Assembly (NCBI RefSeq): GCF_014200015.1
Contig: NZ_JACHOT010000002.1
Span: forward strand, 186,001-250,000
From: Aminobacter niigataensis
Lineage (GTDB): Bacteria; Pseudomonadota; Alphaproteobacteria; Rhizobiales; Rhizobiaceae
DNA: 64,000 nt
Direction: 5' to 3'
Below, in pieces: positions 14,681-31,478 of the stretch. The position numbers were made by a program, and so were the translations under genes. The stretch's first letter is position 1; every line of letters begins with the position of its first letter. Below the pieces are notes generated by a model. The model saw only the letters and a program-made list of their open reading frames with translations, had not been told where the DNA came from and made no database searches.

Positions 14681-15757
14681 CTACCCCCTGATCAGCACCG
14701 GTCCGCGCGCGGCAAAGCCGATGCCAACCTCCTGCCCAGGCACGAACGGCGCATCGACATCGGACGACACGGCGAACACCTCGCCGAACTCTGTGCCGAC
14801 CATGAACTCCAGGTCGGAGCCGACATAGGTCACCTTGTCCAGCCGGCCGGGGATCGTGCGCGGGCTGCCTGCCGGCTTGATCTCGATGCGGCTCGGCCGC
14901 ACGGCGAGCTTGGCAGGCCCCGGCGCCATGCCGCGCGCGTCAAGCTTGGTCTCCAACCCACCCAACCGCACGCTCGCCATGCCGTCCGCCACCGCTGAAA
15001 TCTCGCAGTCGAAGATGTTGGCCTCGCCGATGAAGTCGGCGACGAAGGCATCCGCCGGCGCGTCGTAGAGTTCGCGCGGCGTGCCGTCCTGGGCGATGAC
15101 GGCATTGTTCATGACGATGATGCGATCGGAGACGGCCAGCGCCTCCTCCTGGTCGTGGGTGACATAGACCACCGTCAGCCCGAGCTTGGTCTGGATGTCG
15201 CGGATCTCCTCGCGCACCCGGCGCCTCAGCTTGGCGTCGAGATTGGACAGCGGCTCGTCGAACAAGAGCACCTGTGGCTCGAGCACCAGCGCGCGCGCCA
15301 CGGCCACGCGCTGCTGCTGGCCGCCGGACAGCTCGCTCGGCAAGCGGCTGCCGTAGCCGGAAAGCCCCACCAGCTCCAACCCGGCGCGGGCGCGATCACC
15401 GATCTCCTTCTTGGCGAAGCCGGAGAACTTAAGCCCGTACTCGACGTTCTCGTTGACCGTCATATGCGGAAACAGCGCATAGGACTGGAACACCATCGAC
15501 ACGTCGCGGTCTGTCGCTGGCAAATGGGTGACATCGGCACCACCGATCAGGATCTGCCCCCGCGTCGCCATCTCCAGCCCGGCAATCATGCGCAGCGTCG
15601 TCGTCTTGCCGCAGCCGGAGGGGCCGAGCAAAGTGACCAGCTTGCCGGCCTCGACGAACAACGACACGTTGTTGACCGCCGGCACCGGGCTTTTGCCGTA
15701 GACCTTGGTGACCTCGCGGAACTCCACCGAAGCGGCGTTGCTCTTGATCTCAGCCAT
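14681..15757 (-). CDS. ABC importer ATPase, FbpC/AfuC type (system 1)
   Basis: The 358-residue ATPase has Walker A GPSGCGKT near 44, the Q-loop in VFQSYALFPH, the LSGGQQQRVA signature, Walker B VLLFDEP and the H-loop YVTHDQEEA. A C-terminal TOBE-type regulatory domain follows from about 240. It belongs to the iron(III)/spermidine/phosphonate/hexose-phosphate importer class. Its start overlaps the permease stop by one base, so it is the last gene of the operon SBP-permease-ATPase. The substrate cannot be read from the ATPase itself. Confidence 0.9.
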   Translation of the reverse strand: MAEIKSNAASVEFREVTKVYGKSPVPAVNNVSLFVEAGKLVTLLGPSGCGKTTTLRMIAGLEMATRGQILIGGADVTHLPATDRDVSMVFQSYALFPHMTVNENVEYGLKFSGFAKKEIGDRARAGLELVGLSGYGSRLPSELSGGQQQRVAVARALVLEPQVLLFDEPLSNLDAKLRRRVREEIRDIQTKLGLTVVYVTHDQEEALAVSDRIIVMNNAVIAQDGTPRELYDAPADAFVADFIGEANIFDCEISAVADGMASVRLGGLETKLDARGMAPGPAKLAVRPSRIEIKPAGSPRTIPGRLDKVTYVGSDLEFMVGTEFGEVFAVSSDVDAPFVPGQEVGIGFAARGPVLIRG

Positions 15758-18039
15758 CAGCCGCCTCCAGAAAATGCCGGTTGGTTGCGCGCAGGCAGGC
15801 TGACGTTGGAGCGCCAGCCGCCGGACTGCGGATCCCCATGTTGCCCGCGCCGGCCGATGTTGCGCCGCCCGACCACAAGCTGCATCAGCCCGACCACCAC
15901 CAGCATGACGCCGATCAGCACGGCCGAGTAAGCAATGGCAATGCCGTATTCGTTGTTTTCGACGCGGCCGACGATGTAGCTCGTCGACATGTCGTAGCGG
16001 GCGCTGACCAGGAAGATGATGGCGCTGATTGCCGTCATCGCACGCACGAAGGAATAGACCAGTGCGGCAACGATCGCGGGCCTGAGCAAGGGCAGCACCA
16101 CCTTGCGGAAGGTCTGCCATGAATTGGCACCCAAGGTCAGCGACGACTCGTCAAGGCTCTTGTCGATCTGCGACATCGACGCCACGCCCGCCCGCACGCC
16201 CACCGGCATGTTGCGGAAGATGAAGGACAGAACGAGGATGATGCCGGTGCCGGTCAGCTCGATCGGCGGCACGTTGAAGGCGATCACGTAGCTGACGCCG
16301 ATCACCGTGCCCGGAATGGCGAAGGACAGCATGGTGCCGAACTCGAAGGCGTTCTTGCCGGCAAAGTTCTGCCGCACCAGAAGATAGGCGGTGAGCAGAC
16401 CGATGGCCGCCGTCAGCGGCGACGAGATCAGCGCGATCTGCAGCGTCGTCCAGAACGAGCTCCAGGCCGAGCCCTTCCAGTGGATGCCGAACTCGTTCCA
16501 GCCCACCGCGAAGGCCTTCACATAATGGGCGAAGGTCAGGCTGTGATCGACGCCCCAGAGCTTGACGAAGCTGCCATAGAAGATCGTCGCATAGATGAAG
16601 ATGGTGAACGCGACCCAGAAGCCGGCAGCGCCGTAGACGGCGCGCTTCAGGCCGGTGGGCAGCTCCGGGTGGACGCCGGCGTCGCCCTTGCCCGACATCG
16701 TCGTGTAGGACTTCTTGCCGAGCCAGAAACGTTGGGCATAAAAGGCGAGCAGCGTGAAGGCGAGCAGCACCAGCGCCAGGATCGCCGCCTGCGCCTCGTC
16801 GTTCTGCGCGCCGACGATGGCAAAGAAGATCTCCGTCGACAGCACGTCGAAATTGCCGCCCAGCACCAGCGGGTTGCCGAAATCGGCCATGCTCTCGATG
16901 AAGCCGAGCAGGAAGGCGTTGGCGAGGCCCGGCCGCATCAACGGCAGCGACACCGTCCAGAAGGTCTGCCAGCGGTTGGCGCGCAGCGTCTGCGCCGCCT
17001 CCTCCATCGACGGGCTGACGCCCTCGACCACCCCGATCAGCACCAAAAAGGCGATCGGCGTGAAGGCCAGAAGCTGGGCGATCAGCAGTCCGGGTAGGCC
17101 GTAGATCCAGCGCGTCGGCTGGATGCCGAACAGCTCCGAGAACGTCTGCGTCACCGCGCCCGACAGGCCGAACAGTAGGATGATGGCGAGGCCGATGACG
17201 AAAGGCGGCGTGATGATCGGCAGCACCGTCAGCGCCCTGAGCAGCTTGCCATAGCGGAAGCCCGTGCGCGTCACCATCAGTGCGAAGACGAGGCCCAGCA
17301 CGGTCGTCAGCACGCCCACGAGCACGGCGAGGAACAGCGAATTCCAGGCGACTCCGCAACGGCTGCCGCCAGCAAGGCAGTCGAGGCTCCACAGCCGCGC
17401 GCTGAACAGCTTGCCGAGGAAGGTCGTCAACGAATAGGTGCCGTCCTCCGTGATCAGCGCATTTGCCAGCATCTGCAGGATCGGCATGAAGATGAACAGG
17501 CCGACCGACGCCACTACGAAGGCGATGGTCGAGACCACGAAGACGTCGCCGCCGACCGCGCCGCGCGCCGCGAACCCGAGCGAGAACAGGAACAGGAAGG
17601 CCAGCCCCACCAGCAGCGCGCCGTAGCCCATGCCGAACTGGCGGTCGTCGAGATCGCCGAACAGGCTGTGCAGCCAGCCGAACTGCCAGCCGCGCAGGCC
17701 TATGGCAAAGCCCTGGAACAGCAGCCAGGCAAAGCCCGCCGCGCCTATCGCAACGAGCAGCCTGCCGAACAGTGGATCGGATTTCCTGCGGCCCCACAAA
17801 AGCAGCGGCGTAGCCAGCAGCAGGCCGAGCGGTGCCAGCCACAGCTTCTCCCCCTTGAGATTGAGGATCAGCGCGGGCGCGAACTCACTGTCGAGGGGAT
17901 AGCCCTCGAACAGCCAGGACAAGCCGAAGAACCCGTCTTCGACGCCGTACCAGGGGAGCACGGCAAAGCCGAGCAATCCGACCGCCACCCAAAGGATGAC
18001 GGTCGGGTGCAGGCCGCCGCTAAAGTCGCGGGAGCGCAT
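15757..18039 (-). CDS. ABC importer permease, fused double-domain (system 1)
   Basis: At 760 residues this is longer than typical FbpB/AfuB permeases (about 500-700). Two BPD-type permease halves are present, each with an EAA-like loop (EEAAQTLRANRWQTFW near 348 and DESSLTLGANSWQTFR near 638). About 190 extra N-terminal residues add some five hydrophobic segments before the first permease core. Such extended fused permeases occur in iron and phosphorylated-sugar importers. It follows the binding protein gene by 3 bases and is coupled to the ATPase gene. Confidence 0.88.
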   Translation of the reverse strand: MRSRDFSGGLHPTVILWVAVGLLGFAVLPWYGVEDGFFGLSWLFEGYPLDSEFAPALILNLKGEKLWLAPLGLLLATPLLLWGRRKSDPLFGRLLVAIGAAGFAWLLFQGFAIGLRGWQFGWLHSLFGDLDDRQFGMGYGALLVGLAFLFLFSLGFAARGAVGGDVFVVSTIAFVVASVGLFIFMPILQMLANALITEDGTYSLTTFLGKLFSARLWSLDCLAGGSRCGVAWNSLFLAVLVGVLTTVLGLVFALMVTRTGFRYGKLLRALTVLPIITPPFVIGLAIILLFGLSGAVTQTFSELFGIQPTRWIYGLPGLLIAQLLAFTPIAFLVLIGVVEGVSPSMEEAAQTLRANRWQTFWTVSLPLMRPGLANAFLLGFIESMADFGNPLVLGGNFDVLSTEIFFAIVGAQNDEAQAAILALVLLAFTLLAFYAQRFWLGKKSYTTMSGKGDAGVHPELPTGLKRAVYGAAGFWVAFTIFIYATIFYGSFVKLWGVDHSLTFAHYVKAFAVGWNEFGIHWKGSAWSSFWTTLQIALISSPLTAAIGLLTAYLLVRQNFAGKNAFEFGTMLSFAIPGTVIGVSYVIAFNVPPIELTGTGIILVLSFIFRNMPVGVRAGVASMSQIDKSLDESSLTLGANSWQTFRKVVLPLLRPAIVAALVYSFVRAMTAISAIIFLVSARYDMSTSYIVGRVENNEYGIAIAYSAVLIGVMLVVVGLMQLVVGRRNIGRRGQHGDPQSGGWRSNVSLPARNQPAFSGGG

Positions 18040-18042
18040 CTA

Positions 18043-19068
18043 TTATTGCGGCAGCGTCGAGACTTCCGTGTCCCACTTTGAAAGCAGCCGCTTGCGTTCT
18101 TCGCTCGAGCCGTACTTCTTGAAGTCGTAGTCGATCAGCTTGATCGTCGACAGGTCGGGCGTCAGCTCGGACACGGCAGCCGTCTTGTTCGAAGGCAGCT
18201 GGAACGACTTCACGTCCTTGGCCTTGCCTTGCATCTCAGCCGAAAGAGCCCAGTCGTAAAACTTCTTGGCCGCCTCGGCATTGCGGGCGCCCTTGATCAG
18301 CGACATCGAGCCGATCTCATAGCCGGTGCCCTCGCAGGGTGCCACCGTGACGATCGGGAAGCCGGCCGCCGTCTGGGCCACGGCATCGTGCATGAACACG
18401 ATGCCGACTGTGGTTTCGCCGAGGCCCGCAGCCTTGATCGGCGCCGAGCCTGACTTGGTGTACTGGTTGATGTTGGCGTGCAGGGCCTTCATGTAGTCGA
18501 AGCCCTTGTCCTCGCCCATCAGCTGCACCATCGTTGCCAGCGTCGTATAGGCGGTGCCCGACGAGTTCGGGTTGGCGATCTGGATCTGGCCCTTGAATTC
18601 GGCCTTGGTCAGATCCGCCCAGCACTTCGGCTCGGGCAGGCCGTTCTTGGCCAGAAGATCTTTGTTGTAGCCGAAGCCAAGCGCGCCCGAATAGACGCCG
18701 ATGGTCTTGTTGCCGGCGGCCTCGGCCTGCTTGATCGCCCAGTCGTGCAGTTCGCCGCGCATCGGCGAGATATACTCTTCGGTCAGGTTCTCCTCGGCGG
18801 CCTGCAGATGCGGATCGCCGGTGCCGCCCCACCACACATCGCCCTTCGGGTTGCTCGCTTCGGCACGCACCTGGGCATAGGTCTCGCCCGAACTCTTGCG
18901 CGTCATGTCGACGGTGATGCCGGTCTTTTCCTCGAAGCCGGTCTTGATCTGCTGGCACCAGGCCTCGTCAGCGCTGCAATAGAGCGTCAGGCTTTCAGCC
19001 TGCGCCGACGCGCCGCCGGCCATCATCAACGCGGCCAGCGCGGCCGAACGCAAAAGGGCAGTCTTCAT
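18043..19068 (-). CDS. Periplasmic substrate-binding protein (system 1)
   Basis: The 341-residue protein has a Sec signal peptide (about 1-24) and the family 1 extracellular solute-binding fold: LYCSADEAWCQQIKTGFEE at the first strand, then DVWWGGTGDPH and YSGALGFGYNKDLL. Proteins of this group bind Fe(III), phosphonates or sugar phosphates. The Tyr pair that holds iron in FbpA is not obvious, and the first strand has a Cys pair (LYCSADEAWC) not usual for iron binders. GGAGGG precedes the ATG at 19068. The clustering with phosphatase genes argues for a phosphorylated ligand. Confidence 0.86.
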   Translation of the reverse strand: MKTALLRSAALAALMMAGGASAQAESLTLYCSADEAWCQQIKTGFEEKTGITVDMTRKSSGETYAQVRAEASNPKGDVWWGGTGDPHLQAAEENLTEEYISPMRGELHDWAIKQAEAAGNKTIGVYSGALGFGYNKDLLAKNGLPEPKCWADLTKAEFKGQIQIANPNSSGTAYTTLATMVQLMGEDKGFDYMKALHANINQYTKSGSAPIKAAGLGETTVGIVFMHDAVAQTAAGFPIVTVAPCEGTGYEIGSMSLIKGARNAEAAKKFYDWALSAEMQGKAKDVKSFQLPSNKTAAVSELTPDLSTIKLIDYDFKKYGSSEERKRLLSKWDTEVSTLPQ

Positions 19069-19262: not shown

Positions 19263-19742
19263 ATGCCGAAGGACAAGAAGACCATCCGCAAGGCGAACAA
19301 GGGCGAGATCATCGCCCAGGTCGCTGCCATCCCGTTCCGTGTGAACGAGGCCGGCGAGCTTGAGGTCATGCTTGTCACCTCGCGCGGCACGCGCCGTTTC
19401 ATCGTGCCCAAGGGCTGGCCGATGAAGGGCAAGAGCGGCCGCCAGGCCGCGCTCATCGAGGCCCGCGAGGAAGCCGGCGTACGTGGCAAGGCATTGAAAA
19501 GGCCAGCCGGCAGCTATTGTTACTGGAAGCGGCTGTCGACCAGCTTCGTCCATGTCGAGGTCACCGCCTATCTCATCGACGTCTCCGAGGAACTCGACGC
19601 ATGGCAGGAAGCCGGGGTACGTCAGCGCGCCTGGCTGACGCCGTCGGATGCGGCCGTGCTGATCGACGAGCCCGAGCTTTCGACCCTGATCCGCGGCCTC
19701 ACCGTCGCCGATCTGGTCCAGCCCGAGGCAGAGCTGGCCTGA
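19263..19742 (+). CDS. NUDIX hydrolase
   Basis: The 159-residue protein has a basic N-terminus and a NUDIX domain. The box reads GKSGRQAALIEAREEAGV, with the REEAG core intact, preceded by VPKGWPMKG. The first Glu of the consensus box is replaced. The family resembles DIPP-type diphosphoinositol polyphosphate or diadenosine polyphosphate hydrolases (FIVPKGWP). That would fit a phosphorylated-compound island, but the class is broad. ATG 19263 was chosen over an ATG eight codons upstream because the family begins here. It diverges from the system 1 ABC operon and precedes lacI. Confidence 0.8.
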   Translation: MPKDKKTIRKANKGEIIAQVAAIPFRVNEAGELEVMLVTSRGTRRFIVPKGWPMKGKSGRQAALIEAREEAGVRGKALKRPAGSYCYWKRLSTSFVHVEVTAYLIDVSEELDAWQEAGVRQRAWLTPSDAAVLIDEPELSTLIRGLTVADLVQPEAELA

Positions 19743-19836: not shown

Positions 19837-19852
19837 TTGCACATTTGTGCAA
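19837..19852. promoter_or_regulatory. LacI-type operator upstream of lacI
   Basis: TTGCACATTTGTGCAA has 7-bp perfect arms around a TT centre. It lies 43 bases before the lacI start and matches three other sites in the cluster, pointing to autoregulation. Confidence 0.75.
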
Positions 19853-19895: not shown

Positions 19896-20915
19896 ATGTC
19901 CGAACTGAAGCCGGGCAGGTCATTCGTAAGCGCCCAGCAGGTCGCCGAACTCGCTGGCGTTTCCCGCTCGGCCGTCTCCCGCACCTTCACCGATGGCGCC
20001 AGCGTTTCCGAGACCACCCGCAAGAAGGTGCTCGAGGCTGCCGAGACACTCGGCTATCACGTCAACCATCTCGCCCGCAGCCTGATCCACGAGGACAGCG
20101 GCATCGTCTGCCTCATCGGCGCCGACATCAACACGCCCTATCATTCACGCCTGCTCGACGCGATCACGCGGCGCCTGCAGGCCATCAACCGCGTCGCCAT
20201 GGTCATCAACACCTCTGGCGACAGCGACAGCGTCGATGCGGCGCTGCGCCAGACGCTGAACTACCGCGCCAACGCCACCGTGGTTCTGTCAGGCACCCCG
20301 CCAGCCTCGCTCATCAACACCTGCATCAACAGCGGCCAGCACGTCATCCTGATCAACCGCGACGACCATCTCGACGGCCCCGAAAACATCACCGTCGACA
20401 ATGCGGCCGCGGCCCGTGAAGCCTTCCATATGCTGCATCGCGCCGGCTGCCGCCGCATCGCCGTGGTGTCGTCGCAAGCCGGCACGCCGAGCCTGGTTGC
20501 CCGCGAGCGCGCCTTCGAGGCTGCGGCCGGCGAGGCCGGCCTGTCGGTCACCATCACCCGCGCCGGGCCCACCGGCTATGGCGCGGGCTTCGAAGCAGGG
20601 CGCCTGCTGCTCAGCGGCTCGGACCGGCCCGATGCCGCCTTCTGCGTCACCGACCTGCTTGCCTGCGGTTTCATGGATGCTGCGCGCGTCGAATTCGGCA
20701 TGAACGTGCCGGCCGAGCTGTGCGTCGTCGGCTTCGACGACATCGAGCAGGCGGGCTGGGCGTCTTACCAACTGACCACCTTCCGCCAGCCGATCGACCA
20801 GGTGGCCGACCATATCACCAAGCTGCTCGACAGCGACGACCCCGAGCCTGCGCAAGGCGGCCGCGTCTGCTTTCACGCCGACCCGGTCTGGCGCAAAACC
20901 GTCCGGCCCAAGTGA
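19896..20915 (+). CDS. LacI-family transcriptional regulator
   Basis: The 339-residue protein has the LacI helix-turn-helix and hinge (SAQQVAELAGVSRSAVSRTF and then RSLI near 60), followed by a periplasmic-binding-protein-like sensor domain to the end. The ATG at 19896 follows GGAG. Genes of this class sense a sugar or sugar phosphate and release a palindromic operator. Four matching palindromes in the neighbourhood make the ABC and phosphatase operons the likely targets. Its last 43 bases overlap the tail of the convergent metallophosphoesterase gene. Confidence 0.9.
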   Translation: MSELKPGRSFVSAQQVAELAGVSRSAVSRTFTDGASVSETTRKKVLEAAETLGYHVNHLARSLIHEDSGIVCLIGADINTPYHSRLLDAITRRLQAINRVAMVINTSGDSDSVDAALRQTLNYRANATVVLSGTPPASLINTCINSGQHVILINRDDHLDGPENITVDNAAAAREAFHMLHRAGCRRIAVVSSQAGTPSLVARERAFEAAAGEAGLSVTITRAGPTGYGAGFEAGRLLLSGSDRPDAAFCVTDLLACGFMDAARVEFGMNVPAELCVVGFDDIEQAGWASYQLTTFRQPIDQVADHITKLLDSDDPEPAQGGRVCFHADPVWRKTVRPK

Positions 20916-22600
20916 TTCTTTGAGGTCACTTCGCCGGTCGCAAGGTCGACCGAGAAGTCGCGTGACGGCGCGCTGGCCAGCCAGTCCATCATCATCTGCA
21001 TGAACGATGCCAGCCGGTCCTGCAGGCAGCCCTCCGGCCACGCGCCGGCGGCGAACCGTCCAGCCAGATGGCGATAGGCGGCGATGCGCGCCGGATCGAT
21101 GAAATCGAGCGCCACCTCGCGTCCCTTGCGCAGCCTGTACCAGTCGACCACCATTTCGAAAAGCGGCAGCCCTTGCCAGTCCGGCGCGTCCGGTTCGCCG
21201 GCAGAGGCCAGGAAGGTAAAGGCGTCGCCCGACGTCAGCGGCACCGTAGTGCCGGCCAGCCGATCGAGATCGCCTAGGTTCAGTTGCGGCACCAGCGCCG
21301 CAAGATCCCGCGGCCATTCCTTGGGCAGGTAGCGGTGCCTGACCATCTCCGCGAGATGGCGGCTCAGGAAATCAGCGTGGTTTTCCGCTTCCGTCACCGC
21401 GGCCGACGTTCTCTCCCGCGCAGCCTCGATGCGGTAGTATGGAAATGCCGCGTCGTGTCCCGGCACATCGGCGATGATGACCGTCTCGACCTCCAACCGC
21501 TCGCCGTCCATCTCGACGATCTTGTAAGCGGGCGGAAAACCCACCATCGACGGCACGGCGATGTTGACCAGCCAGTCGTCGCCGTCACGGAAGACGGCGG
21601 TGTCGTTGATGTGCAGGTGCCCGCTGAAATGCACCTTGATGCCGGTCGCCGCCGCAGCACGCGACACTTCCGCCCCCGGCGTGCGGCGCAGGAAGCTGGT
21701 GTCGTTGAGCAGCTTCGCCTCGTCGGCCGAGGTACCGTTGAGCGGATCGATGATCGGATAATGCGAGAATGCGATCAGCCGCTTGCCGGCTGCGTTGGCG
21801 CGTGCGGCAACGTCCTTCATCCAGTCGAGCACGAAACCCTTGTTGCGCGGCATCGAGTTCCAGCCGGCATCGGTGCTGTCGTGATAGCTCTTCTCCAGCC
21901 TCGAATCGAGGTCGCCATCCTTCGGCTCGAACACATTGGCATCGATGCATAGCAGCCATAGGCCTTCCACCGGCTCGACCAGGAATGAGGCATCGACCAT
22001 GCGCCTCACAGTCCGGCCATCGGCCGAAACGATCTCGAAAGCCCGCGCCTCCAGCCTGTCGTCGGTTCCGAACGGGCACTCCCAGTGCAGGTCGCCTTCG
22101 CTGCGAAAGAAACCATAGGCGCCCATCGCCGGGATCGCGGCGCCATAGCCACCGCAATACATCTCGTCCGAGACGATGCGCTCGACGGAGTCGCCCTGTT
22201 CCATGGCGGGATCGCTGGTCACCAACGTGTGCGAGCCGTCTGTGTTGAGGAACCGCTTGCTCTGGTGCCGGCCGTGGATGGCGTAGAGGTCGTGATTGCC
22301 TGCAGTCGCCACGAAGCGCAGGCCGAACCGCCGGGAATAGTCGGCCAGCAGCGCCGTCGCCGCGACCATCGTCGACTGCTGGCCATCGTCTGTCAGGTCG
22401 CCGGCAACGACGACCAGCGAGATGCCGCGCCGGACGATGTCGTCAAGCAGCGCCTTGGTGGCATGGAAGCTTTCGTTGAAGACACGCGTCGAGGCGTTGG
22501 TGTCGGCCAGCGTCCGCACCGCCACCTGGTCCCCACGCCCCACGCCCTGGCGATAGTCGATGTCGTGGAAATGCGGGTCGGCGATGACGGCAATCTTCAT
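20873..22600 (-). CDS. Cytosolic metallophosphoesterase with long C-terminal region
   Basis: The 575-residue enzyme has the calcineurin-like metal motifs in order: DPHFH (D8, H10), GDLTDDG near 67, GNHD near 101, SHYP near 280 and GHLH near 328. About 230 residues after the catalytic fold have no motif I recognise. There is no signal peptide, so its substrate must be cytosolic. Phosphomonoesterase or phosphodiesterase activity cannot be told apart. It is last in the operon IMPase-DSP-MPE, 28 bases after the phosphatase gene. Confidence 0.85.
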   Translation of the reverse strand: MKIAVIADPHFHDIDYRQGVGRGDQVAVRTLADTNASTRVFNESFHATKALLDDIVRRGISLVVVAGDLTDDGQQSTMVAATALLADYSRRFGLRFVATAGNHDLYAIHGRHQSKRFLNTDGSHTLVTSDPAMEQGDSVERIVSDEMYCGGYGAAIPAMGAYGFFRSEGDLHWECPFGTDDRLEARAFEIVSADGRTVRRMVDASFLVEPVEGLWLLCIDANVFEPKDGDLDSRLEKSYHDSTDAGWNSMPRNKGFVLDWMKDVAARANAAGKRLIAFSHYPIIDPLNGTSADEAKLLNDTSFLRRTPGAEVSRAAAATGIKVHFSGHLHINDTAVFRDGDDWLVNIAVPSMVGFPPAYKIVEMDGERLEVETVIIADVPGHDAAFPYYRIEAARERTSAAVTEAENHADFLSRHLAEMVRHRYLPKEWPRDLAALVPQLNLGDLDRLAGTTVPLTSGDAFTFLASAGEPDAPDWQGLPLFEMVVDWYRLRKGREVALDFIDPARIAAYRHLAGRFAAGAWPEGCLQDRLASFMQMMMDWLASAPSRDFSVDLATGEVTSKNHLGRTVLRQTGSA

Positions 22601-22628: not shown

Positions 22629-23261
22629 TCAGTCCTGGGCGACCAAGACCGGCGCCGGCAATCCCTTGTCGATCATCGCGATCCACTGCGCCGCCTTGCG
22701 AGCGGCCTCGACCAGCATCGGCTTGGGCGCCTCGTGCCATTCGTCGCGGCGCAGCTCGCGCTGGGTGCGCACATGGTTCAGCGCATCGTCCAGCGTCGGG
22801 AACTTCTCGGGCATCTCGACATGCAGGAAGAGTGCGACCAGCGACACCGAGCGGCTGCGGCCGCCACGGCAATTGACCAGCACATTGCCCTTCTCGCGCC
22901 GGCGATAGGTCGCCTTCTCCGGCAGCACCTGGCTGAGGGCCCCGCGCAGCAGGTAAAAGCCCGACAGCATCATGGTCTCGGGGTTGCCGTGCCCGTCGAT
23001 CAGGCCGAGCTTGTAGTAGCGCACCGCGCCGACACCGTAGATGGCGTCCGCCGCCTCGCCTTCGCCGAAAGGCTCGGTCGCATAGTTGAAGTCGAGATTG
23101 ACGGCGCAGTTCACCACGGTCGTGATGTTCTTTTGCCGGAGCAATTCGAGATCGCCCGCGCCATCCATGCCGCCGACATAGATGTCGACGCCGTAGCCGG
23201 CGACGTCGCGCTCGATCAGGCTGAGCGCCGGGCGCTCATAGCGCGGGCTGGTCATGTCCAT
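22629..23261 (-). CDS. Dual-specificity/tyrosine phosphatase-like protein
   Basis: The 210-residue protein has the cysteine phosphatase loop CRGGRSR (C131 nucleophile, R137), preceded by VLVN instead of the usual VHC: the histidine before the catalytic Cys is N130. An Asp in the LIDGHGN loop (about D89) is a candidate general acid. No signal peptide is seen. Relatives dephosphorylate phosphoprotein, phosphoinositides or small phosphosugars. Between an inositol monophosphatase-family gene and a metallophosphoesterase gene, a small-molecule substrate is more likely than protein tyrosine. Confidence 0.8.
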   Translation of the reverse strand: MDMTSPRYERPALSLIERDVAGYGVDIYVGGMDGAGDLELLRQKNITTVVNCAVNLDFNYATEPFGEGEAADAIYGVGAVRYYKLGLIDGHGNPETMMLSGFYLLRGALSQVLPEKATYRRREKGNVLVNCRGGRSRSVSLVALFLHVEMPEKFPTLDDALNHVRTQRELRRDEWHEAPKPMLVEAARKAAQWIAMIDKGLPAPVLVAQD

Positions 23262-24156: not shown

Positions 24157-24172
24157 TTGCACACGTGTGCAA
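24157..24172. promoter_or_regulatory. LacI-type operator upstream of phosphatase operon
   Basis: TTGCACACGTGTGCAA is a perfect 16-bp palindrome. It sits just before the ribosome binding site of the IMPase-A gene, where a repressor would block transcription of the three-gene phosphatase operon. Confidence 0.8.
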
Positions 24173-24268: not shown

Positions 24269-25147
24269 TCATGCCACGCTTCCCGCCATCGAAAGTTTCG
24301 GCCTGGCGGCCTTCGCGGCCTCGCGGCCATCAGAGATTTCGCGAGCCACCCGCATCAGTGTCGGATAGTCGGCGCCGTCGCCGAGCGCGACATAGCCCGG
24401 GCACATGAAATCAGGCACGCCGGCGCCCACCTTGCCGAGGGTCAGGGGGTGATAACTGCCCCCAGCCTGCTTGAGAATGAGAACCGCCGCCGCCACATCC
24501 CATGGGTTGGAGCCGAACCCGGCGGAGGCATCTACCCAGCCCGCTGCGACATGGCAGAGGCTGAGCGCCCCGCTGCCTGGCCGGCGCAATGTCGAAAACG
24601 TCTCGGCCAGCACGCCGAAATTCGCCAGCGCCTGTTCGCGTCCGTCGAGCCTGAGGTCGCGCGCCACCGGATAGCCGGTGATCAGCGTTGCATGGCGTTC
24701 GTCGGCTATGGCGCGCGATTGCAGCGGCTCGCCGTTCAGCCAGGCGCCGGAAAGATCGGCCGAAAACAGCATGCCGGCGACAGGGTCGTAGACCGCGCCG
24801 GCGACGATCTCGCCATCGATCGCAACCCCGACCGAAACGCACCAGAAGGCAAATCCGCGGGCGAAATTCGAGGTGCCGTCGATCGGATCGACATACCAGC
24901 GCACCCGGCCCACACCGCTCTCGCCGGCCTCCTCGCCGACCACGACGGAGTCGGGCACCTCGCCGAGGATGAAGGCGCGGATCGCCACCTCCGCTTCCTT
25001 GTCGTGCCTGGTCACCACGTCGTGCAGGTCGACCTTGTAGTCGACCGCCATGTTGGAGCGGAATGCCGCCAAAAGCGGCTCGCGCATCAGCTGCGATGCC
25101 TGTTCGGCGACCGCCCGCAGGCGCCTCGATTCGTCTATTTCGATCAT
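24269..25147 (-). CDS. Inositol monophosphatase-family phosphatase (B)
   Basis: The 292-residue paralogue of gene A has GEE at E72/E73, DPIDGT at 87-92 and PWD in the NPWDVAAAVL segment near 217. The two proteins are clearly different in sequence outside these motifs, so they may act on different phosphate positions or substrates. No signal peptide. Its start overlaps the HAD gene stop (ATGA), which makes it the last gene of the long ABC operon. The operator for gene A lies between this gene and gene A. Confidence 0.88.
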   Translation of the reverse strand: MIEIDESRRLRAVAEQASQLMREPLLAAFRSNMAVDYKVDLHDVVTRHDKEAEVAIRAFILGEVPDSVVVGEEAGESGVGRVRWYVDPIDGTSNFARGFAFWCVSVGVAIDGEIVAGAVYDPVAGMLFSADLSGAWLNGEPLQSRAIADERHATLITGYPVARDLRLDGREQALANFGVLAETFSTLRRPGSGALSLCHVAAGWVDASAGFGSNPWDVAAAVLILKQAGGSYHPLTLGKVGAGVPDFMCPGYVALGDGADYPTLMRVAREISDGREAAKAARPKLSMAGSVA

Positions 25148-25953
25148 GCCGCAATCCCGCGCGTGGCTTCACGGAACAGACCGAGCAGCCCGACCGGATC
25201 GGCAACGATGGCGTCCGGCTTGAGCTTCAGCTCGTAGGGCAGATCGTAAGTTCCCTTGTCTTCCATCAGGATGTTGCCGCCGATGCCGGCACGCTTGCCG
25301 CACAGCACGTCGCGGTCAAAATTGTCGCCGACATACCAGGCCTCGGACGGCTCGATGCCAAGCGCCCGCGTCGCCAGCCAGATCATTTCCGGGTTGGGCT
25401 TGCGCACCTTCACCTCGTCGCTGTGGACGACCGTGGCGAACCGCGCGGTCAGCCCGTGGGCGTCGAGGAAGTCGACATGCACCTTGCCGCACAACGCATT
25501 ACTGACGATGCCCACCGGCACGCCGGCCGCGTCCGCCGCATCGAGCAGGTCGAGCATGCCGCTGCGCAGGATGCGCTCACTCTTCCAGTTGCCCATCTTG
25601 CAGCAGAGATCGTAGGCCTCGGCGACGACGACGTCCCGCGCCTGTTGCGGCCAGTCGCCGGCAACGAAATCTCCCCAGAACTCCTCGTGCCGCAGTTCGC
25701 GCGGTGCCAACGGCCGCGACATCGCATTCTTCCAATGCGAGTCGGCCACGCCACCTGCCTTGATGTCATCGGCGATCTGCTCGGCCGAAAGTTCGGGCGC
25801 CGCCATGCCGGCCTTGTCGAGCAGGCCGCGTACGTGCCCGGCCAGCCGCGCCTGCCAGCCCGGCAGATGCGCCGTCGACACGATCACACCACCGAAATCG
25901 AGCAGCAGTGCCCTGGGTGGCGCGAGCTTTCGCCCCGAACTTTTCGACATCAT
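25144..25953 (-). CDS. HAD-superfamily hydrolase
   Basis: The 269-residue protein shows motif I as LLLDFGGV (nucleophile about D20), motif II in GIVSNAL, the Lys in VRKPNPEM and motif IV GDNFDRD. The usual second Asp of DXD is Gly, as in YihX-like HAD members, so the acid/base residue is unusual. A helical cap spans about 35-120. It probably hydrolyses a small phosphate ester in the cytosol. ATG 25953 follows GGAG. A terminator-like hairpin lies between it and the binding-protein gene upstream. Confidence 0.85.
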   Translation of the reverse strand: MMSKSSGRKLAPPRALLLDFGGVIVSTAHLPGWQARLAGHVRGLLDKAGMAAPELSAEQIADDIKAGGVADSHWKNAMSRPLAPRELRHEEFWGDFVAGDWPQQARDVVVAEAYDLCCKMGNWKSERILRSGMLDLLDAADAAGVPVGIVSNALCGKVHVDFLDAHGLTARFATVVHSDEVKVRKPNPEMIWLATRALGIEPSEAWYVGDNFDRDVLCGKRAGIGGNILMEDKGTYDLPYELKLKPDAIVADPVGLLGLFREATRGIAA

Positions 25954-25975
25954 CAAATCTCCATTTGCCAGTGGA

Positions 25976-26028: not shown

Positions 26029-27171
26029 CTATTTCTTGTAGGCGAGGCGCCACAGATCCTGCCAATCTTGGCGCGCATCCCAGTCTTCGAGTGCCGTCGA
26101 GGCGTCGTATTGCTGCAACCTGTCCAGCACCTTGCCGATGCCCGAGGGCTCATCGGCGGGCAGGCCGATATCAGGGTTGGTCGGCAGCTTGCCGTCCTTC
26201 ACCTGCGGCGCGATGCCTTCCTCGGTCAGGATGTAGTGGATGAACAGCTTGGCCGCGTTCGGGCTCTTGGTGCCGGTGGCGATCAGCCCGAGCTTGACGT
26301 AAGTCCAGCCCGGCCATGGCTCCAGCCCCTCGCACAGGCCGAGCTTGAAGCCCTTGTCGGCATTGTCGCGGAACTTGGCCGAACTCATCAGTCCGAAGAA
26401 CGGCTCCTTCTGGCCCGGCGCACCCACGCTTTCCGATATTGCATCGTCGGAGTCGGAAAGCAGGGGGGCATTGCCGGCGAAGGCCTTGACCCAGGCGGCC
26501 GTGGCGCTGTCTTCGCCGACCTCGATCTCCTTGCCGAAATGCGCCTTGTAGGCGGCCTTCATCTTGTCGTCGTCATGCGTCGCCGTCTGGTTGAACCAGT
26601 CGGGATAGGTGCCCTTCGACAATGGATCGTAGAAGGCGACCTTGCCCTTCCACTTGGGGTCGGTGAGCTCCCAGATGTTCTTCACCGGGCAGGCGTCATG
26701 GACTTCCGTGTTGTAGGCCCAGACGCTGGCATTGGTGGTGATCGCCAGCGGGTCCTGGAACTTGGCCGGGATCTTGTCGGCCATGTCCGGCGGCAGGTAG
26801 CTCTCGACGAATTTCTGCGGCAGCAGCTGCGCAAGGCCTGCTGGCGCATCGGTGATCAGCACCACGTCGCCCTTGACGTTCTTGGCCTGGCCCTCGCGCA
26901 CGATCATCTCCAGCTGCGCGCTCGCCGACACCTTGATGCCGGTCGCCTTCACCCCGTATTTGGCGGTGAAGTTCTCGGCCATTTCGACGATCTTGCCGGT
27001 GCTGTCGTAGATGTTGATCGGCGCTTCCTTCTTCGCCGCTTCGACCAGCGCATTGAGGTCGAAGGCCTCGGCGCGCGCCGGTGCCGACGCCATCACGCTA
27101 GCTGCCATCATCCCGGCCAGCGCCGTCGTCGCCAGTGCAACTTTCCTACTCGTTTCAAATGCCGGCTTCAT
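26029..27171 (-). CDS. Periplasmic substrate-binding protein (system 2, copy 1)
   Basis: The 380-residue protein has a Sec signal peptide ending ARA and a mature start FDLNALVEAAKKEAPINIY. It has the solute-binding family 1 core and ends in a conserved DWDARQDWQDLWRLAYKK. The neighbouring copy shares this start, the centre (KNIWELT and WFNQ) and the end, so the two are recent tandem paralogues. GGGAGGAAAC precedes the ATG. The related AfuA binds hexose phosphates, others bind ferric iron; the phosphatases downstream favour a phosphorylated ligand. Confidence 0.87.
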   Translation of the reverse strand: MKPAFETSRKVALATTALAGMMAASVMASAPARAEAFDLNALVEAAKKEAPINIYDSTGKIVEMAENFTAKYGVKATGIKVSASAQLEMIVREGQAKNVKGDVVLITDAPAGLAQLLPQKFVESYLPPDMADKIPAKFQDPLAITTNASVWAYNTEVHDACPVKNIWELTDPKWKGKVAFYDPLSKGTYPDWFNQTATHDDDKMKAAYKAHFGKEIEVGEDSATAAWVKAFAGNAPLLSDSDDAISESVGAPGQKEPFFGLMSSAKFRDNADKGFKLGLCEGLEPWPGWTYVKLGLIATGTKSPNAAKLFIHYILTEEGIAPQVKDGKLPTNPDIGLPADEPSGIGKVLDRLQQYDASTALEDWDARQDWQDLWRLAYKK

Positions 27172-27236: not shown

Positions 27237-28364
27237 CTATTTCTTGTAGTTGATGCGCCACAGGTCCTGCCAATCCTGGCGCGCGTCCCAGTCGCCCTGG
27301 GCCGACGCCGAGTCGTAGGGGAAGATCTGGTCCAGCGCCTTGCCGATGCCTGAGGGCTCGTCGTCAGGCAGCTTGGCGTCGCTGTTGGTCGACATCTTGC
27401 CGTCGGCCGCCTGCGGTGCGATGCCTTCCTCGGTCATCAGGTAGTGGATGAACAGCTTGGAAGCGTTTGGGCTGTCGGTGCCCTTGGCGATGAAGCCGAG
27501 GCTCGGATACATCCAGCCGGCGAAGGGTTTGAGCCCTGTGCACAGGCCGAGCTTGGAGCCGACGTCCTGGTTGTTGCGGAACTTGGCCGAGCTGATCAGC
27601 CCGATGAACTGTTCCTTCTGGTCGGGTGCGCCGACAGCCTGCGCAGCTCCTTCATCGGCGTCGGTCAACAGCGGGCCGTTGGCAGCCAGCGCCTTGACCC
27701 AGGCCGCGGTAGCGCCCTCCTCGTCGGTCACCAGATCCTTGCCAAAATATTCCTTGTAGGCCGCAGCCACCTTGTCGTCGGCATTGGTCGCCATCTGGTT
27801 GAACCAGTCGACATAGGACGCCTTGTTCAGCGGGTCCTGCATGGCGAGCTTGCCCTTCCACTTGGCTTCCGTCAGCTCCCAGATGTTCTTGACCGGGCAG
27901 CTTTCGTTGAGCTGGGTGTTATAGGCAAAGACGTTGGCCTCGTTGGAGACGGTCAGCGGGTTCTGGTACTGCGCCGGGATCTTGTCGGCGAGGTCCGGCG
28001 GCAGCCAGCTGTCGACGAAGCCCTGCGGCACCAGTTGCGCCACGCCAGCCGGCACGTCGCTGATCTGGATCACGTCGCCCTGCACGTTCTTGGCCTGGCC
28101 CTCGCGGATCACCATCTCCAGCTGGGCTGCGGCATTGGCCTTGGTGCCGGTCGCCTGCACGCCGTACTTCTTGGTGAAGTTCTCGGCCTGCTTCACGATC
28201 TTGCCGGTACTGGAATAGACATTGATCGGCGGCTCCTTCTTCGCCGCCTCGATCAGCGCGTTGAGGTCGAACTCCTCGGCCTGAGCGGCACTTGCAAACA
28301 GGCCGGCAGCGACGCCCAGCGCCGTCGCAGCAAGGAGCCGTTTCACATCGAAATGTCTGCTCAT
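27237..28364 (-). CDS. Periplasmic substrate-binding protein (system 2, copy 2)
   Basis: The 375-residue protein has a Sec signal peptide (about 1-28) and starts FDLNALIEAAKKEPPINVY in the mature form. It shares the same fold, motifs and C-terminal DWDARQDWQDLWR with copy 1. GGGAGGAAAAG precedes the ATG at 28364. Two binding proteins served by one permease and ATPase usually widen the ligand range. The order permease-ATPase-SBP-SBP is unusual because the binding protein genes come after the membrane parts. Confidence 0.87.
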   Translation of the reverse strand: MSRHFDVKRLLAATALGVAAGLFASAAQAEEFDLNALIEAAKKEPPINVYSSTGKIVKQAENFTKKYGVQATGTKANAAAQLEMVIREGQAKNVQGDVIQISDVPAGVAQLVPQGFVDSWLPPDLADKIPAQYQNPLTVSNEANVFAYNTQLNESCPVKNIWELTEAKWKGKLAMQDPLNKASYVDWFNQMATNADDKVAAAYKEYFGKDLVTDEEGATAAWVKALAANGPLLTDADEGAAQAVGAPDQKEQFIGLISSAKFRNNQDVGSKLGLCTGLKPFAGWMYPSLGFIAKGTDSPNASKLFIHYLMTEEGIAPQAADGKMSTNSDAKLPDDEPSGIGKALDQIFPYDSASAQGDWDARQDWQDLWRINYKK

Positions 28365-28401: not shown

Positions 28402-28465
28402 GTCTCGTTTCCCGATAGTCCTGCTTCATTTCCGGCGGACGGTCCTCCACCGCCCGCCGAACCTC

Positions 28466-29596
28466 TCAATGCAGCTTGGCCGGCCGCATCAGCCTGTCTG
28501 CCGCCTCCACGCGCTGGCCGGCCTTGTCGAAGACATGCAGAGCCTTGGGCTTGACCCACCAGGTCACGGCCTCGCCGACCTCGACCTCAGGCGATTGGTG
28601 CGTGGTCAAGAACAGCTTTTCGCCGGCGGCGGTCAGCTCGATGATCCAGCTGCCGCCCGTGGGCAGGATACCGGTCACCTCGGCCTTGCCCGACAGCGCC
28701 CCTTCCGAGACGCCGCGCTCGTCGTCTGCAAGGCGGATCGCTTCCGGCCGGATGCCGATCGAGCCCGCATCCAGTAGATCGGCGAAGTGCGAGCCGAGAT
28801 AGGCATTGGCCAGCCGCGACACCTCCGACTTTGCATCGCCGAGTTCGACGATGTTGATCGGCGGGTTGCCGACGAACTGCGCCACGAAGCGGTTGGCCGG
28901 GCGGTCGTAGATGTCGTTGGGCGTGCCGACCTGCTGCAGTTGGCCCTCGCTCATGACGGCGATGGTGGTGGCGAGCGTCATCGCTTCCCACTGGTCGTGG
29001 GTCACGAACACGATCGTCGTCTTGAACTCGGCGTGCAGGCGCTTGAGCTCGGCGCGCATCTCGAGCCGAAGTGCCGCGTCGAGGTTCGACAGCGGCTCGT
29101 CGAGCAGCAGCACCTCCGGGTTGACCGCCAGCATGCGGGCCAAGGCCACGCGCTGCTGCTGGCCGCCCGACAGCTGCGACGGGTAGCGGTCGCGGTACTT
29201 CTCGATGCCGAGCGTCTTCATTACCTGGTCGACGCGCTGCTCACGCTCGGCCTTGGGCATCTTGCGCAGCCGCAGGCCGAAATCGGTGTTGCGCTCGATG
29301 GTCAGATGCGGCCACAGCGCGTAGCTCTGGAACACCAGCCCCATCTCGCGGCGCTCCGGCGGCACGAACACGCCCTCGACGACCGAGTCGACGACGCGGG
29401 GCCCGACGCGGATTTCGCCTGCCGTCAGGTGCTCCAGCCCGGCGATCATGCGCAACGTCGTGGTCTTGCCGCAGCCGGAGGGCCCCAACAGGCACATGAA
29501 TTCGCCGTCACCTATTTCGAGGTCGAGGTCGGCCACCGCATTGGCCGAGTTGCCGCCGTAGTTCTTCTCGACGCCGCTCAGGTTGATCTTCGGCAT
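28466..29596 (-). CDS. ABC importer ATPase (system 2)
   Basis: The 376-residue ATPase has Walker A GPSGCGKT near 39, VFQSYALWPH at the Q-loop, the LSGGQQQRVA signature, Walker B VLLLDEP and the FVTHDQWEA switch, then a C-terminal regulatory TOBE domain. It is the CUT1/FbpC type and resembles the system 1 ATPase. The gene follows the permease by one base. The C-terminal domain contains RPEAIRL, typical of importers of this class. Confidence 0.9.
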   Translation of the reverse strand: MPKINLSGVEKNYGGNSANAVADLDLEIGDGEFMCLLGPSGCGKTTTLRMIAGLEHLTAGEIRVGPRVVDSVVEGVFVPPERREMGLVFQSYALWPHLTIERNTDFGLRLRKMPKAEREQRVDQVMKTLGIEKYRDRYPSQLSGGQQQRVALARMLAVNPEVLLLDEPLSNLDAALRLEMRAELKRLHAEFKTTIVFVTHDQWEAMTLATTIAVMSEGQLQQVGTPNDIYDRPANRFVAQFVGNPPINIVELGDAKSEVSRLANAYLGSHFADLLDAGSIGIRPEAIRLADDERGVSEGALSGKAEVTGILPTGGSWIIELTAAGEKLFLTTHQSPEVEVGEAVTWWVKPKALHVFDKAGQRVEAADRLMRPAKLH

Positions 29597-29597
29597 G

Positions 29598-31478
29598 TCA
29601 GTTCCCCAGTCCTTGCGCGAGATTGGTCTTGGTCAACTTCTGGCCGAGCAGCGCGCCGAAATAGGCGAGGCCGGCGATGATGAGCACGACGGCGTTGGCG
29701 GCCTGCGTGTAGTGGTAGTCGACGAGCCTGAGTGAATAGGTGGTCAGCACGTCGGTCGACGGCACGGCCAGCACGACGAACAGGCTGAGGCCCTTGATGC
29801 CCGAGATGAAGGGCAGCAGGATGCCCGTCGTCAGCGACCCTTTCTGGATCGGGATGACGATCGAGGTCATGCGGCGGAACCAGCCGGCGCCGGCGATCTG
29901 CGCCGCCTCCTCCGGATCCTTGCCGAGCTGCGTCATCGCCGCGATGCCGGCGCGCGAGGCATAGGGCATCTGGTCGGCGATCAGCGCCAGCATCAGGATC
30001 AGCGTCGTGCCGTAAAGCGCCGGGATCGGCCCGCGCGGCACGGCAAACAGCGAGAGATAGGCAGCCGCAAAGGCGATGCCCGGCACCAGATAGGGCAGGA
30101 ACGTCACCTGGCGCAGGAAGGTGCCGAGCGGCTTCACCGGGGTACGCGCCACGACATAACCGACCAGCAACCCGAGGATGCCGGATGTGATCGAGGCGAC
30201 GCCGACGATGCGCAGGCTGTTCCACGCCGCGTTCCACAGGTCGGGGCTGAGCAGGATGCCGGTCTGTAGCGCCACCGTGTTGAGGTTGGTGCCGATCCAG
30301 TAGTCGAGCGTGAAATTGTCGAGGTTGAACTGGCCCGGCACCCGCATGATCGTGGACAGGAAAAGCGTGCCGATCGGCAGGCCGACGCTGAGCACGAACA
30401 TCAGCGCGGCGAAACCGGTTGCCGGCATGCGCAGGATGCCGAGCGGGCTCAGCCGGTTCATCGAGCCTTTGGAACCGATGGTCACGAAGCGGCGCGCTTC
30501 CCGCATCAGCCGGGCATCGATGGTGATGGTGATGATGCCGATCAGCATGATGGCGCCGGCCAGCACCGCACCGACGCCGACCTGGCGCGATGAGATGTTC
30601 TGGTAGAGCGAGGTCGCCAGCACGTCGAAATTGACCGGCAGGCCGAGCACGTAGGGCACGCCGAACTCGCCGAGGCACTTGGCGAAGATCAGAACCATCG
30701 CCGACATCAGCGACGGGCGCATCAGCGGCATGATGATCTTGCTCGCCACCGTCAGCCTGTTGGCGCCCAGGATGCGGGCCGAGTCCTCGAGCTGCGAGTC
30801 GAAGCGGCGCAGCGCATTGCCGAACAAGAGGATGACGAAAGGCGAATAGTGCAGCGCCAGGATGATCGTCACCGGCAGTTGGCCATAGGACAGCCAGTCC
30901 GGCGGCGAAAAACCTATGGATTCCAACCAGCCGGGCTGGCCGCCGACGGTGCGGTTCTTGAACAAGGTCGTCCAGGCCAGCGCAAACGTCCAGGCCGGCA
31001 GCATGTAGGGCACGATGAGGGCCGTGGCGAACCAGCGGCGGCCGAACATATCGGTACGGCTGAGCAGCCAGGCGAGCGTGCCGCCGACCAGCATCGACAG
31101 TACGATCGCGCCGGCTGCCACGCTCAGCGTGTTGACCAGCGGTTCCCAGAACAGGTCGTGCGAAATGCGCGAGAGGAAGACGCGGTCGATATAGTACCAG
31201 GTGAGCTCGCCGACATCCTGCTTGATGCGGCGCTCGTCGCCGAACTGCACCCGCATCGCGTCGGACAGCATCGAGATGATCGGCACGACGATGAGATAGG
31301 CAAACAGCGCCGCGGCCAAAACGCCGATGATCGTCGTCGGCTCGCGCAGAGCCACCTTCATCCGGTAGCGCAGGCGCTGGCCTCGCGTCGGCGCGGCAAG
31401 CCGCGATGTGCCAGAGTTGCGGCGCACGGGCGCCGGCTTGGCCGATGTTTGGGCTGATGTCTGGGCAGGGCCGCTCAC
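29598..31478 (-). CDS. ABC importer permease, fused double-domain (system 2)
   Basis: The 626-residue permease has a polar N-terminus of about 45 residues and then two permease halves with EAA-like loops (EDSARILGANRLTVAS near 232 and EEAAQIAGAGWFRRMT near 525). About 12 membrane segments are expected. This fused form is typical of FbpB/AfuB-type importers. It is the first gene of the operon and reads from a promoter in the 493-base interval upstream, which has two LacI-type operators. Confidence 0.88.
   Translation of the reverse strand: MSGPAQTSAQTSAKPAPVRRNSGTSRLAAPTRGQRLRYRMKVALREPTTIIGVLAAALFAYLIVVPIISMLSDAMRVQFGDERRIKQDVGELTWYYIDRVFLSRISHDLFWEPLVNTLSVAAGAIVLSMLVGGTLAWLLSRTDMFGRRWFATALIVPYMLPAWTFALAWTTLFKNRTVGGQPGWLESIGFSPPDWLSYGQLPVTIILALHYSPFVILLFGNALRRFDSQLEDSARILGANRLTVASKIIMPLMRPSLMSAMVLIFAKCLGEFGVPYVLGLPVNFDVLATSLYQNISSRQVGVGAVLAGAIMLIGIITITIDARLMREARRFVTIGSKGSMNRLSPLGILRMPATGFAALMFVLSVGLPIGTLFLSTIMRVPGQFNLDNFTLDYWIGTNLNTVALQTGILLSPDLWNAAWNSLRIVGVASITSGILGLLVGYVVARTPVKPLGTFLRQVTFLPYLVPGIAFAAAYLSLFAVPRGPIPALYGTTLILMLALIADQMPYASRAGIAAMTQLGKDPEEAAQIAGAGWFRRMTSIVIPIQKGSLTTGILLPFISGIKGLSLFVVLAVPSTDVLTTYSLRLVDYHYTQAANAVVLIIAGLAYFGALLGQKLTKTNLAQGLGN

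Follow-up and report, generated by a model that had tools for sequence, protein, structure and literature searches.

A candidate LacI-controlled system for uptake and cytosolic dephosphorylation of inositol phosphates in Aminobacter niigataensis and its relatives

Which compound would a bacterium import through two FbpABC/AfuABC-type transporters whose genes lie among five phosphatase genes? This question is raised by a region of Aminobacter niigataensis within the 64,000-nucleotide stretch analysed here (contig NZ_JACHOT010000002.1, positions 186,001 to 250,000; hereafter the window). A preliminary description of the window proposed that a sugar phosphate, an inositol phosphate or a glycerophosphodiester is taken up intact and dephosphorylated in the cytosol. 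Our analysis points to inositol phosphates as the best-supported substrates, and to a core set of genes that would form a LacI-controlled catabolic system for them, a reading to which we assign a probability of about 0.78. Its basis is gene content, conservation, palindromic sites, neighbouring genes and fused enzymes, all read from sequence; LacI binding, the ligands, the sequence of phosphate removal, the direction of phosphate transport and the inducer are inferred. Intact uptake followed by cytosolic dephosphorylation gains support from conserved linkage, from three unique predicted operators, and from phytase-family and myo-inositol (iol) genes that adjoin the importer in relatives.

Core genes and their conservation

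Window proteins were assigned to families by Pfam and NCBIfam profile matches. All fourteen genes belong to the families named earlier, including the two importers, a LacI regulator, a NUDIX hydrolase and the five phosphatases. The predicted operators and the genes of the core, with one accessory gene among them, are the following.

19837..19852: predicted LacI operator TTGCACATTTGTGCAA, upstream of lacI, 0 mismatches
19896..20915, plus strand: LacI-family regulator (PF00356, PF13377)
20873..22600, minus strand: metallophosphoesterase (MPE; PF00149)
22629..23261, minus strand: cysteine dual-specificity-type phosphatase (DSP) with an NCRGGRSRS loop (DSPc, E 9e-8)
23300..24136, minus strand: inositol monophosphatase (IMPase)-family phosphatase a (PF00459)
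24157..24172: predicted LacI operator TTGCACACGTGTGCAA, about 20 bp ahead of the IMPase a start
24269..25147, minus strand: IMPase-family phosphatase b (PF00459)
25144..25956, minus strand: HAD-IA phosphatase, accessory (PF13419/PF00702)
26029..27171, minus strand: solute-binding protein (SBP) 2 of the core importer (SBP_bac_11)
27237..28364, minus strand: SBP 1 of the core importer (SBP_bac_11)
28466..29596, minus strand: ATP-binding cassette (ABC) ATPase of the core importer (PF00005, TOBE_2)
29598..31478, minus strand: fused permease of the core importer (two BPD_transp_1 stretches; GTG start after AGGAGG)
31751..31766: predicted LacI operator, 1 mismatch, upstream of the permease operon

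The minus-strand genes form a single array that runs from 31478 to 20873 in the order permease, ATPase, SBP 1, SBP 2, HAD, IMPase b, IMPase a, DSP and MPE. The earlier claim that one operon carries transporter, HAD and IMPase genes in series is amended in two details, the two tandem SBPs of this importer and the single array with a predicted internal operator ahead of IMPase a, whose gene starts at 24136.

Conservation of the set was counted in the best 80 of 242 DSP relatives found by a DSP-alignment scan of species genomes, a sample in which the DSP is present by construction and close relatives are favoured. These 80 loci lie on 72 contigs, eight of which gave two loci each. Window genes were scored by tblastn at E 1e-40 and a sodium/phosphate (Na/Pi) transporter, which is not in the window's cluster, at E 1e-20; because 14 of the loci end at contig ends, the counts are lower bounds. 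Permease (79 loci, 74 at 60% identity or more), ATPase (79) and IMPase (79) are nearly constant, followed by LacI (77) and SBPs (75), and then by the Na/Pi transporter (50) and MPE (49). All loci that lack the permease (L041 only) or LacI (L041, L049 and L081) end at contig ends. HAD (11), AfuA (9) and NUDIX (7, at a limit that hides distant copies in L028 and L096) are found in few loci and are thus accessories. The preliminary description had asked whether the parts occur independently; these three do, and the core linkage holds. By these patterns, the core is composed of the permease, ATPase, tandem binding proteins, two IMPases, DSP, MPE and LacI.

The set recurs in other families and classes beyond chance, as the neighbourhood comparison suggested earlier now reveals. 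The closest named DSP relatives (90-95%) are in six Aminobacter genomes and one metagenome-assembled genome titled Mesorhizobium, and the loci span several alpha-proteobacterial families as well as Vibrio, Brenneria and Prodigiosinella. The same set with LacI is found in neighbourhoods of Shinella (L016), Sinorhizobium (L014/L018) and Microvirga (L017), and those of Sinorhizobium add an Na/Pi transporter with PhoU domains; L014 is the locus of the laboratory strain Sinorhizobium meliloti 1021. MPE matches occur in 85 plasmid records by tblastn, 54 of them from Sinorhizobium; in Phyllobacterium (L015), MPE is present and the rest of the set is absent. The number of tandem SBPs per permease is two in the window and reaches three elsewhere. 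In four loci (L063, L072, L074 and L088), the same phosphatases are paired with another FbpABC-type importer (permease 39-42%), so the phosphatases, not one transporter, define the system. Twelve of the 297 genomes in an order-level sample have a DSP match, with identities of at least 50% in five and of 34-42% in seven; in the four of the former group besides the window genome, permease, ATPase, SBP and LacI adjoin the DSP. The importer is found in 3 of 247 Enterobacterales genomes.

One Agrobacterium contig (NZ_JACVAB010000004.1; L080 and L043) carries both the large rhizobial form of the cluster and a minimal gamma-proteobacterial-type form, permease-ATPase-SBP-IMPase-DSP-LacI. The presence of both on one contig suggests transfer between classes.

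Operators, enzymes and neighbouring pathways

A search of upstream regions gave the palindrome TTGCACANNTGTGCAA. Its sites at one mismatch or fewer lie at 19837 (lacI), 24157 (IMPase a-DSP-MPE) and 31751 (permease operon), where 0.02 such sites are expected in the window and none of 100 shuffles reaches three. These three are the only sites at this limit in the 5.28-Mb assembly, and a reversed control pattern has none. Allowing three mismatches gives an unremarkable count in the window (4 found, 2 expected). At least 12 of 14 positions are matched upstream of 28 of 92 permease, 48 of 106 LacI and 1 of 12 AfuA regions (shuffled means 8.2-8.5), although the palindrome was derived from the same upstream sets that were later scored, and these sets take in importer paralogues as well as two empty regions. 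The window permease's own upstream stretch in that set ended short of its 31751 site, and independent support for the operators is their genome-wide uniqueness and the other two window sites only. The three-unit layout repeats at 12 or more of 14 positions in L120/L121 (G238) and L122 (G092), and the site ahead of IMPase a has an equivalent place in L120 (18632) and L122 (8780). LacI would probably bind these predicted sites. No operator copy at one mismatch or fewer lies upstream of the window's AfuABC or NUDIX genes; in G278, where AfuABC adjoins the core, copies of the palindrome lie in a shared intergenic region.

The five phosphatases were earlier thought to lack signal peptides, and inspection together with a simple hydrophobicity scan detects no signal-peptide-like N-terminus in any of them. 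The HAD protein has one hydrophobic stretch, which is read as its motif I. The binding proteins, by comparison, have hydrophobic signal-like N-termini. In MPE, the metal residues DxH, GD, GNHD, H and GHxH are invariant in a nine-sequence alignment. In the DSP, Cys131 and Arg137 of the C-X5-R loop and the general-acid Asp89 are invariant in 30 sequences, and its DSPc match falls about 1 bit below the Pfam cut-off. It matches PF00782 at E 0.001, and not PF14566, the profile of protein-tyrosine-phosphatase-like phytases; that profile matches none of 50 genomes carrying the cluster, and is likewise silent in control genomes. Both IMPases contain the metal motifs GEE, DPIDGT and WD and score under NCBIfam equivalog cut-offs, and the best Protein Data Bank (PDB) match of IMPase a is a bacterial inositol-1-monophosphatase (E 3e-41). 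A single fused protein combines IMPase and DSP in three Enterobacterales loci (L111, L112 and L126). In Brenneria and Prodigiosinella, open reading frames of 486-487 amino acids cover both matches and look like IMPase-DSP fusions.

A phytase-family gene lies directly beside the importer in five loci (L111, G567, G339, G340 and L059). Plasmid L111 of Klebsiella pneumoniae carries, in this order, genes for a KdgM-type porin, a histidine acid phosphatase, the permease, the ATPase, an SBP, the IMPase-DSP fusion and LacI. The best PDB match of this phosphatase is the Klebsiella 3-phytase (8e-82), ahead of the best AppA match (9e-42) and of glucose-1-phosphatase (1e-38). Another Enterobacterales genome, G567, has the same set with KdgM and a phytase of the same type (E 8e-67); G544 has the importer set, and no relative of the L111-type phosphatase in the stretch read. 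In two Devosia genomes (G339 and G340), a beta-propeller phytase gene (PF02333) is adjacent to and divergent from the permease gene. In Vibrio HDW18 (L059), a different branch-2 histidine phosphatase (His_Phos_2) and a porin are divergent from the importer. Among the 50 cluster genomes, PF02333 is found in four (two adjacent) and PF00328 in five (one adjacent).

Histidine acid phytases leave mainly inositol 2-phosphate, whereas beta-propeller phytases leave trisphosphates. The smaller clusters, with one SBP and IMPase-DSP, that lie beside histidine acid phytases would fit the former product. The larger clusters, with two or three SBPs, two IMPases, one or two DSPs and MPE, lie beside beta-propeller phytases and would fit the latter.

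The L111 cassette (NZ_CP138437.1, 7719-16473) is flanked on both sides by insertion sequences and looks like a mobile phytate-use cassette. Soil isolates of K. pneumoniae use phytate as sole carbon and phosphorus source, according to a paper whose accessible text does not contain the word "transporter" (PMC11219571).

The cluster and genes for myo-inositol use form one continuous stretch in Devosia, Alloyangia, Neorhizobium and another relative (G278, G339, G340, G365 and L097). In G278, iolG, iolC, iolD, iolE and iolB, all above curated cut-offs, end beside a cluster ordered MPE-Na/Pi-DSP-LacI-IMPases-SBPs-ATPase-permease-AfuABC-IMPase. Devosia Root635 has iolG-B-E-D-C, NUDIX and phytase, and then the divergent importer. 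A stretch of Devosia naphthalenivorans, in which iolE was not recognised, holds iolC-D-B and iolG, Na/Pi, LacI, DSP, SBP, MPE, DSP, IMPases, SBPs, ATPase, permease and phytase. Contiguous iol genes are also present in Alloyangia L131 and in the Neorhizobium locus (L097). Looser arrangements include iolD about 22 kb from the cluster in G238 and, in G359, an iolD-like set of greater divergence, from which 14 kb with other genes separate it. Within 20 kb of the permease, iolD is found in 4 of 50 genomes against 0.64 expected (P 0.004), with 2 of 50 at 10 kb (P 0.04) and 5 of 50 at 40 kb (P 0.008). The control gene xylA lies within 20 kb in none of the 50, 43 of which have it.

Proposed route and competing explanations

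In the proposed route, phytases outside the cytosol, supplied by the organism itself in some relatives and by neighbours or plants here, would remove part of the phosphate groups of phytate and leave lower inositol phosphates. Binding proteins related to one another would capture different members of this group and deliver them to one FbpBC-type permease and ATPase, by which they would be imported intact. The two IMPases and the DSP would then remove phosphate in the cytosol, and MPE could widen the substrate range, perhaps to diesters such as glycerophosphoinositol or cyclic inositol phosphate. The resulting myo-inositol would feed the Iol pathway. In many relatives, surplus phosphate would leave through the cluster-linked Na/Pi transporter, which we take to be a relative of phosphate exporters. 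LacI would keep three promoters repressed in the absence of its inducer, for which inositol or one of its phosphates is the probable candidate. A gain of both carbon and phosphate was envisaged earlier; the Na/Pi transporter in 50 of 80 loci suggests that carbon rather than phosphorus is the main gain. We lean slightly toward a broader view in which this is an undescribed and widespread route. Intact inositol phosphates, possibly including bis- and trisphosphates, would be carried over the inner membrane by a dedicated ABC importer, and IMPase and DSP would strip them in the cytosol; the cell would thereby gain the carbon of phytate, and phosphate would be pumped out. The DSP would be a cytosolic inositol-polyphosphate phosphatase, and the several SBPs would match the product spectra of different phytases.

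Several observations weigh against an inositol phosphate substrate. No PF00328 or PF02333 phytase lies beside the cluster in 47 of the 50 genomes. The window genome itself has neither at E 1e-10, a search in which PF14566 was the only other phytase family covered; the most fitting view of the strain is consequently that it scavenges lower inositol phosphates released by others. Its iol operon is on another contig and has no operator, and Vibrio HDW18 has cluster and phosphatase and no iolD above cut-off. Although iolD is above cut-off in 49 of 50 cluster genomes, some of them from other orders, versus 107 of 297 genomes in the order-level sample, xylA is also enriched (43 of 50 versus 121 of 297), so the iolD enrichment is largely a generalist effect. 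Plain co-occurrence is weak support after this control; six genomes have one gene of the pair and lack the other, and in all six the gene present is iolD. G116, one of the four order-level genomes with a DSP match of 50% or more besides the window genome, has DSP, LacI and importer and no IMPase in the 20 kb read. The DSP model (pLDDT 83) has VHR as its nearest solved fold, and its nearest folds are protein phosphatases. The AlphaFold model of SBP 1, a protein 64% identical to SBP 2, has a pLDDT of 94; Foldseek places it nearest to MctA and to ferric-binding proteins (query-length TM about 0.6-0.7), and a Vibrio glucose-6-phosphate-binding protein is lower in the list. These matches do not fix the ligand. 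Finally, a 63% core-permease relative in Shinella (L115; NZ_OZ012599.1, 549-14041) lies beside genes for phosphonoacetate hydrolase, phosphonoacetaldehyde dehydrogenase and 2-aminoethylphosphonate (AEP) transaminase; the importer family is thus not limited to one cargo, and L115 may be a phosphonate side branch of it.

Among the other explanations, the core might import hexose phosphates (glucose-6-phosphate and its kin) as AfuABC does, with broad sugar phosphatases and an incidental role for inositol. The adjacent AfuA does keep phosphate and sugar contacts including His205, Asp206 and Glu229, the IMPase and HAD families include broad sugar phosphatases, and xylA is enriched in the same genomes. 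However, phytase-family and iol genes adjoin the core importer in relatives, and AfuA accompanies it in only nine loci. The only PDB sequence matches of SBP 1 at E 0.01 are 1y4t (1.4e-6) and 6g7n (2.4e-4), so AfuA is not among them, and SBP 1 has no His-Asp pair anywhere in its sequence. No sugar-pathway genes were identified beside the core, where rarer neighbour families are not all annotated. We therefore regard a sugar phosphate as an unlikely substrate of the core. Slightly less probable again is a phosphodiester, glycerophosphoinositol or inositol 1,2-cyclic phosphate, as the main substrate, opened by MPE and finished by IMPase and DSP. It would fit the inositol end product and the iol linkage, and MPE with full metal motifs is found in 49 loci, including the two phytase-linked Devosia loci. 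Yet the gamma-proteobacterial loci L059, L066, L073, L087, L111, L112, L125 and L126 have importer, IMPase and DSP and no MPE, and a diester cannot be the substrate common to them all. Of the three compounds first proposed, then, inositol phosphates are favoured, an inositol diester stays possible for MPE, and a sugar phosphate is disfavoured for the core.

The annotation of the core permease as "iron ABC transporter permease" and the fold matches of SBP 1 raise a further alternative, in which Fe(III) or metal-citrate would be the cargo of the FbpABC-type systems and the phosphatases would lie beside them with no functional tie. FbpA binds iron through an adjacent tyrosine pair, and no such pair occurs in any of the three window SBPs. 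Nearly all loci read have the importer linked to IMPase and DSP, and the two enzymes are fused in some; on these grounds, we reject iron import as highly improbable. AfuA was likewise once taken for an iron transporter, as the accessible part of PMC4546632 relates.

Uptake and stripping of inositol phosphates as proposed here would depart from the usual account of how bacteria use the carbon of phosphorylated inositols, in which dephosphorylation to free inositol occurs outside the cell. In agrocinopine catabolism (acc) of Agrobacterium, an intact sugar phosphodiester is imported, then cleaved and dephosphorylated in the cytosol; acc differs from the core cluster in binding-protein class, regulator and enzymes. 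No description of an inositol-phosphate ABC importer or of this cluster was found in the open-licence full-text literature, a scope that leaves subscription papers mostly outside. If the proposal is true, a dedicated importer for phosphorylated forms changes the picture of outside dephosphorylation. It would also give a testable function to many proteins now annotated as "iron ABC transporter" or "dual specificity phosphatase", and tie together phytases, rhizobial phosphate release and the inositol economy of plant roots.

Several known systems resemble parts of the cluster. According to the accessible text on AfuABC of Actinobacillus (PMC4546632), this system is, like the core, a binding protein-dependent importer with a fused permease, was once thought an iron importer, and has a phosphate ester as cargo. 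The core, by contrast, forms a branch of its own, accompanied by IMPases, DSP, LacI and often an Na/Pi transporter; the word "phosphatase" is nowhere in the main text of that paper. The Klebsiella histidine acid 3-phytase (PDB 2wnh) is an enzyme only; such a gene lies beside the importer in L111 and G567 and none is in the window, and the adjoining importer and cytosolic phosphatases are the new part. The iol cluster, subject of a survey (PMC9430895), would form the end of the route and is contiguous with our cluster in several genomes. "Monophosphatase", "LacI" and "iron" are absent from the main text of that survey, which does not cover the cluster under those words. In Caulobacter, an HlyB-family transporter, different in kind from the core ABC importer, was suggested as a possible mover of inositol phosphates (PMC2597717, accessible text). 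An ABC operon of Sinorhizobium, SMb20155-8, appears in the accessible text of PMC4414408; its identity with the cluster could not be shown. The accessible text of a LacI regulon survey (PMC4052901) names no regulator of the cluster's type.

Accessory genes and further observations

The accessory genes outside the minus-strand array are the following.

14681..15757, minus strand: AfuC-type ABC ATPase of the accessory importer (PF00005, TOBE_2)
15757..18039, minus strand: AfuB-type fused permease of the accessory importer (two BPD_transp_1 stretches)
18043..19068, minus strand: AfuA-type sugar-phosphate binding protein of the accessory importer (best PDB match AfuA, 4r72-4r75, E 1.1e-94)
19263..19742, plus strand: NUDIX hydrolase, DIPP-like (PF00293; best PDB match human DIPP1, E 1e-5)

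AfuABC lies at the far side of the cluster on the minus strand; the plus strand carries lacI and the NUDIX gene. Loci of Aminobacter, Shinella, Alloyangia and G278 likewise have AfuABC next to the core. When the 4r72 phmmer alignment is inspected by eye, 12 AfuA contacts are identical in the window protein (Ser37, Gly38, Thr60, Tyr103, Ser148, Gly149, Thr150, Gly185, His205, Asp206, Glu229 and Gln269), and Thr11, Gly36 and Ile186 are changed; the contact residues are those named in the accessible texts of PMC4546632 and PMC8427247. The pyridoxal-phosphate importer P5PA, as described there (PMC8427247), has an AfuA relative for another phosphate ester, with Ala at the position of Asp206, which the window AfuA keeps as Asp. 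The cargo of the accessory importer is probably a hexose phosphate such as glucose-6-phosphate, or inositol monophosphate, with hexose phosphate the likeliest. "Inositol" is nowhere in the main text of the AfuABC paper, and inositol monophosphate is not among the ligands listed in its accessible text (PMC4546632). Phosphonate import by AfuABC was also considered and rejected: PhnS2/T2/U2 are the best NCBIfam names, all below cut-offs.

DIPP-like features had been noted in the NUDIX protein, and its best PDB match bears this out. The NUDIX protein cluster is common to L019-L024 and L031 and, more distantly, to L028 and L096. In Devosia L127, a NUDIX gene at 13760-14236, 40% identical to that of the window, lies between iolC and the phytase gene. 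A NUDIX protein with DIPP as best match beside iol and phytase genes may reflect an inositol pyrophosphate theme.

Other combinations of the same parts exist. Two importers lie in Shinella L114 (NZ_CP069304.1, 1-14321): one is FbpABC/AfuABC-like and adjoins a metallophosphoesterase and an RpiR regulator, and the other is FbpABC-type and is accompanied by IMPase and HAD. Plasmids of walnut Agrobacterium tumefaciens carry a partial SBP relative (69% covered, 50%), among 20 Agrobacterium records altogether. A distant paralogue of the core permease (36%) lies just ahead of the window (G000:C2:182552-184105), about 31 kb from the core permease, and similar paralogue pairs are found in G333 and G335. 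Elsewhere in the window, at 57533-62375, a sugar-type ABC importer (ATPase, permease and SBP) with a ROK-like regulator looks ordinary by eye.

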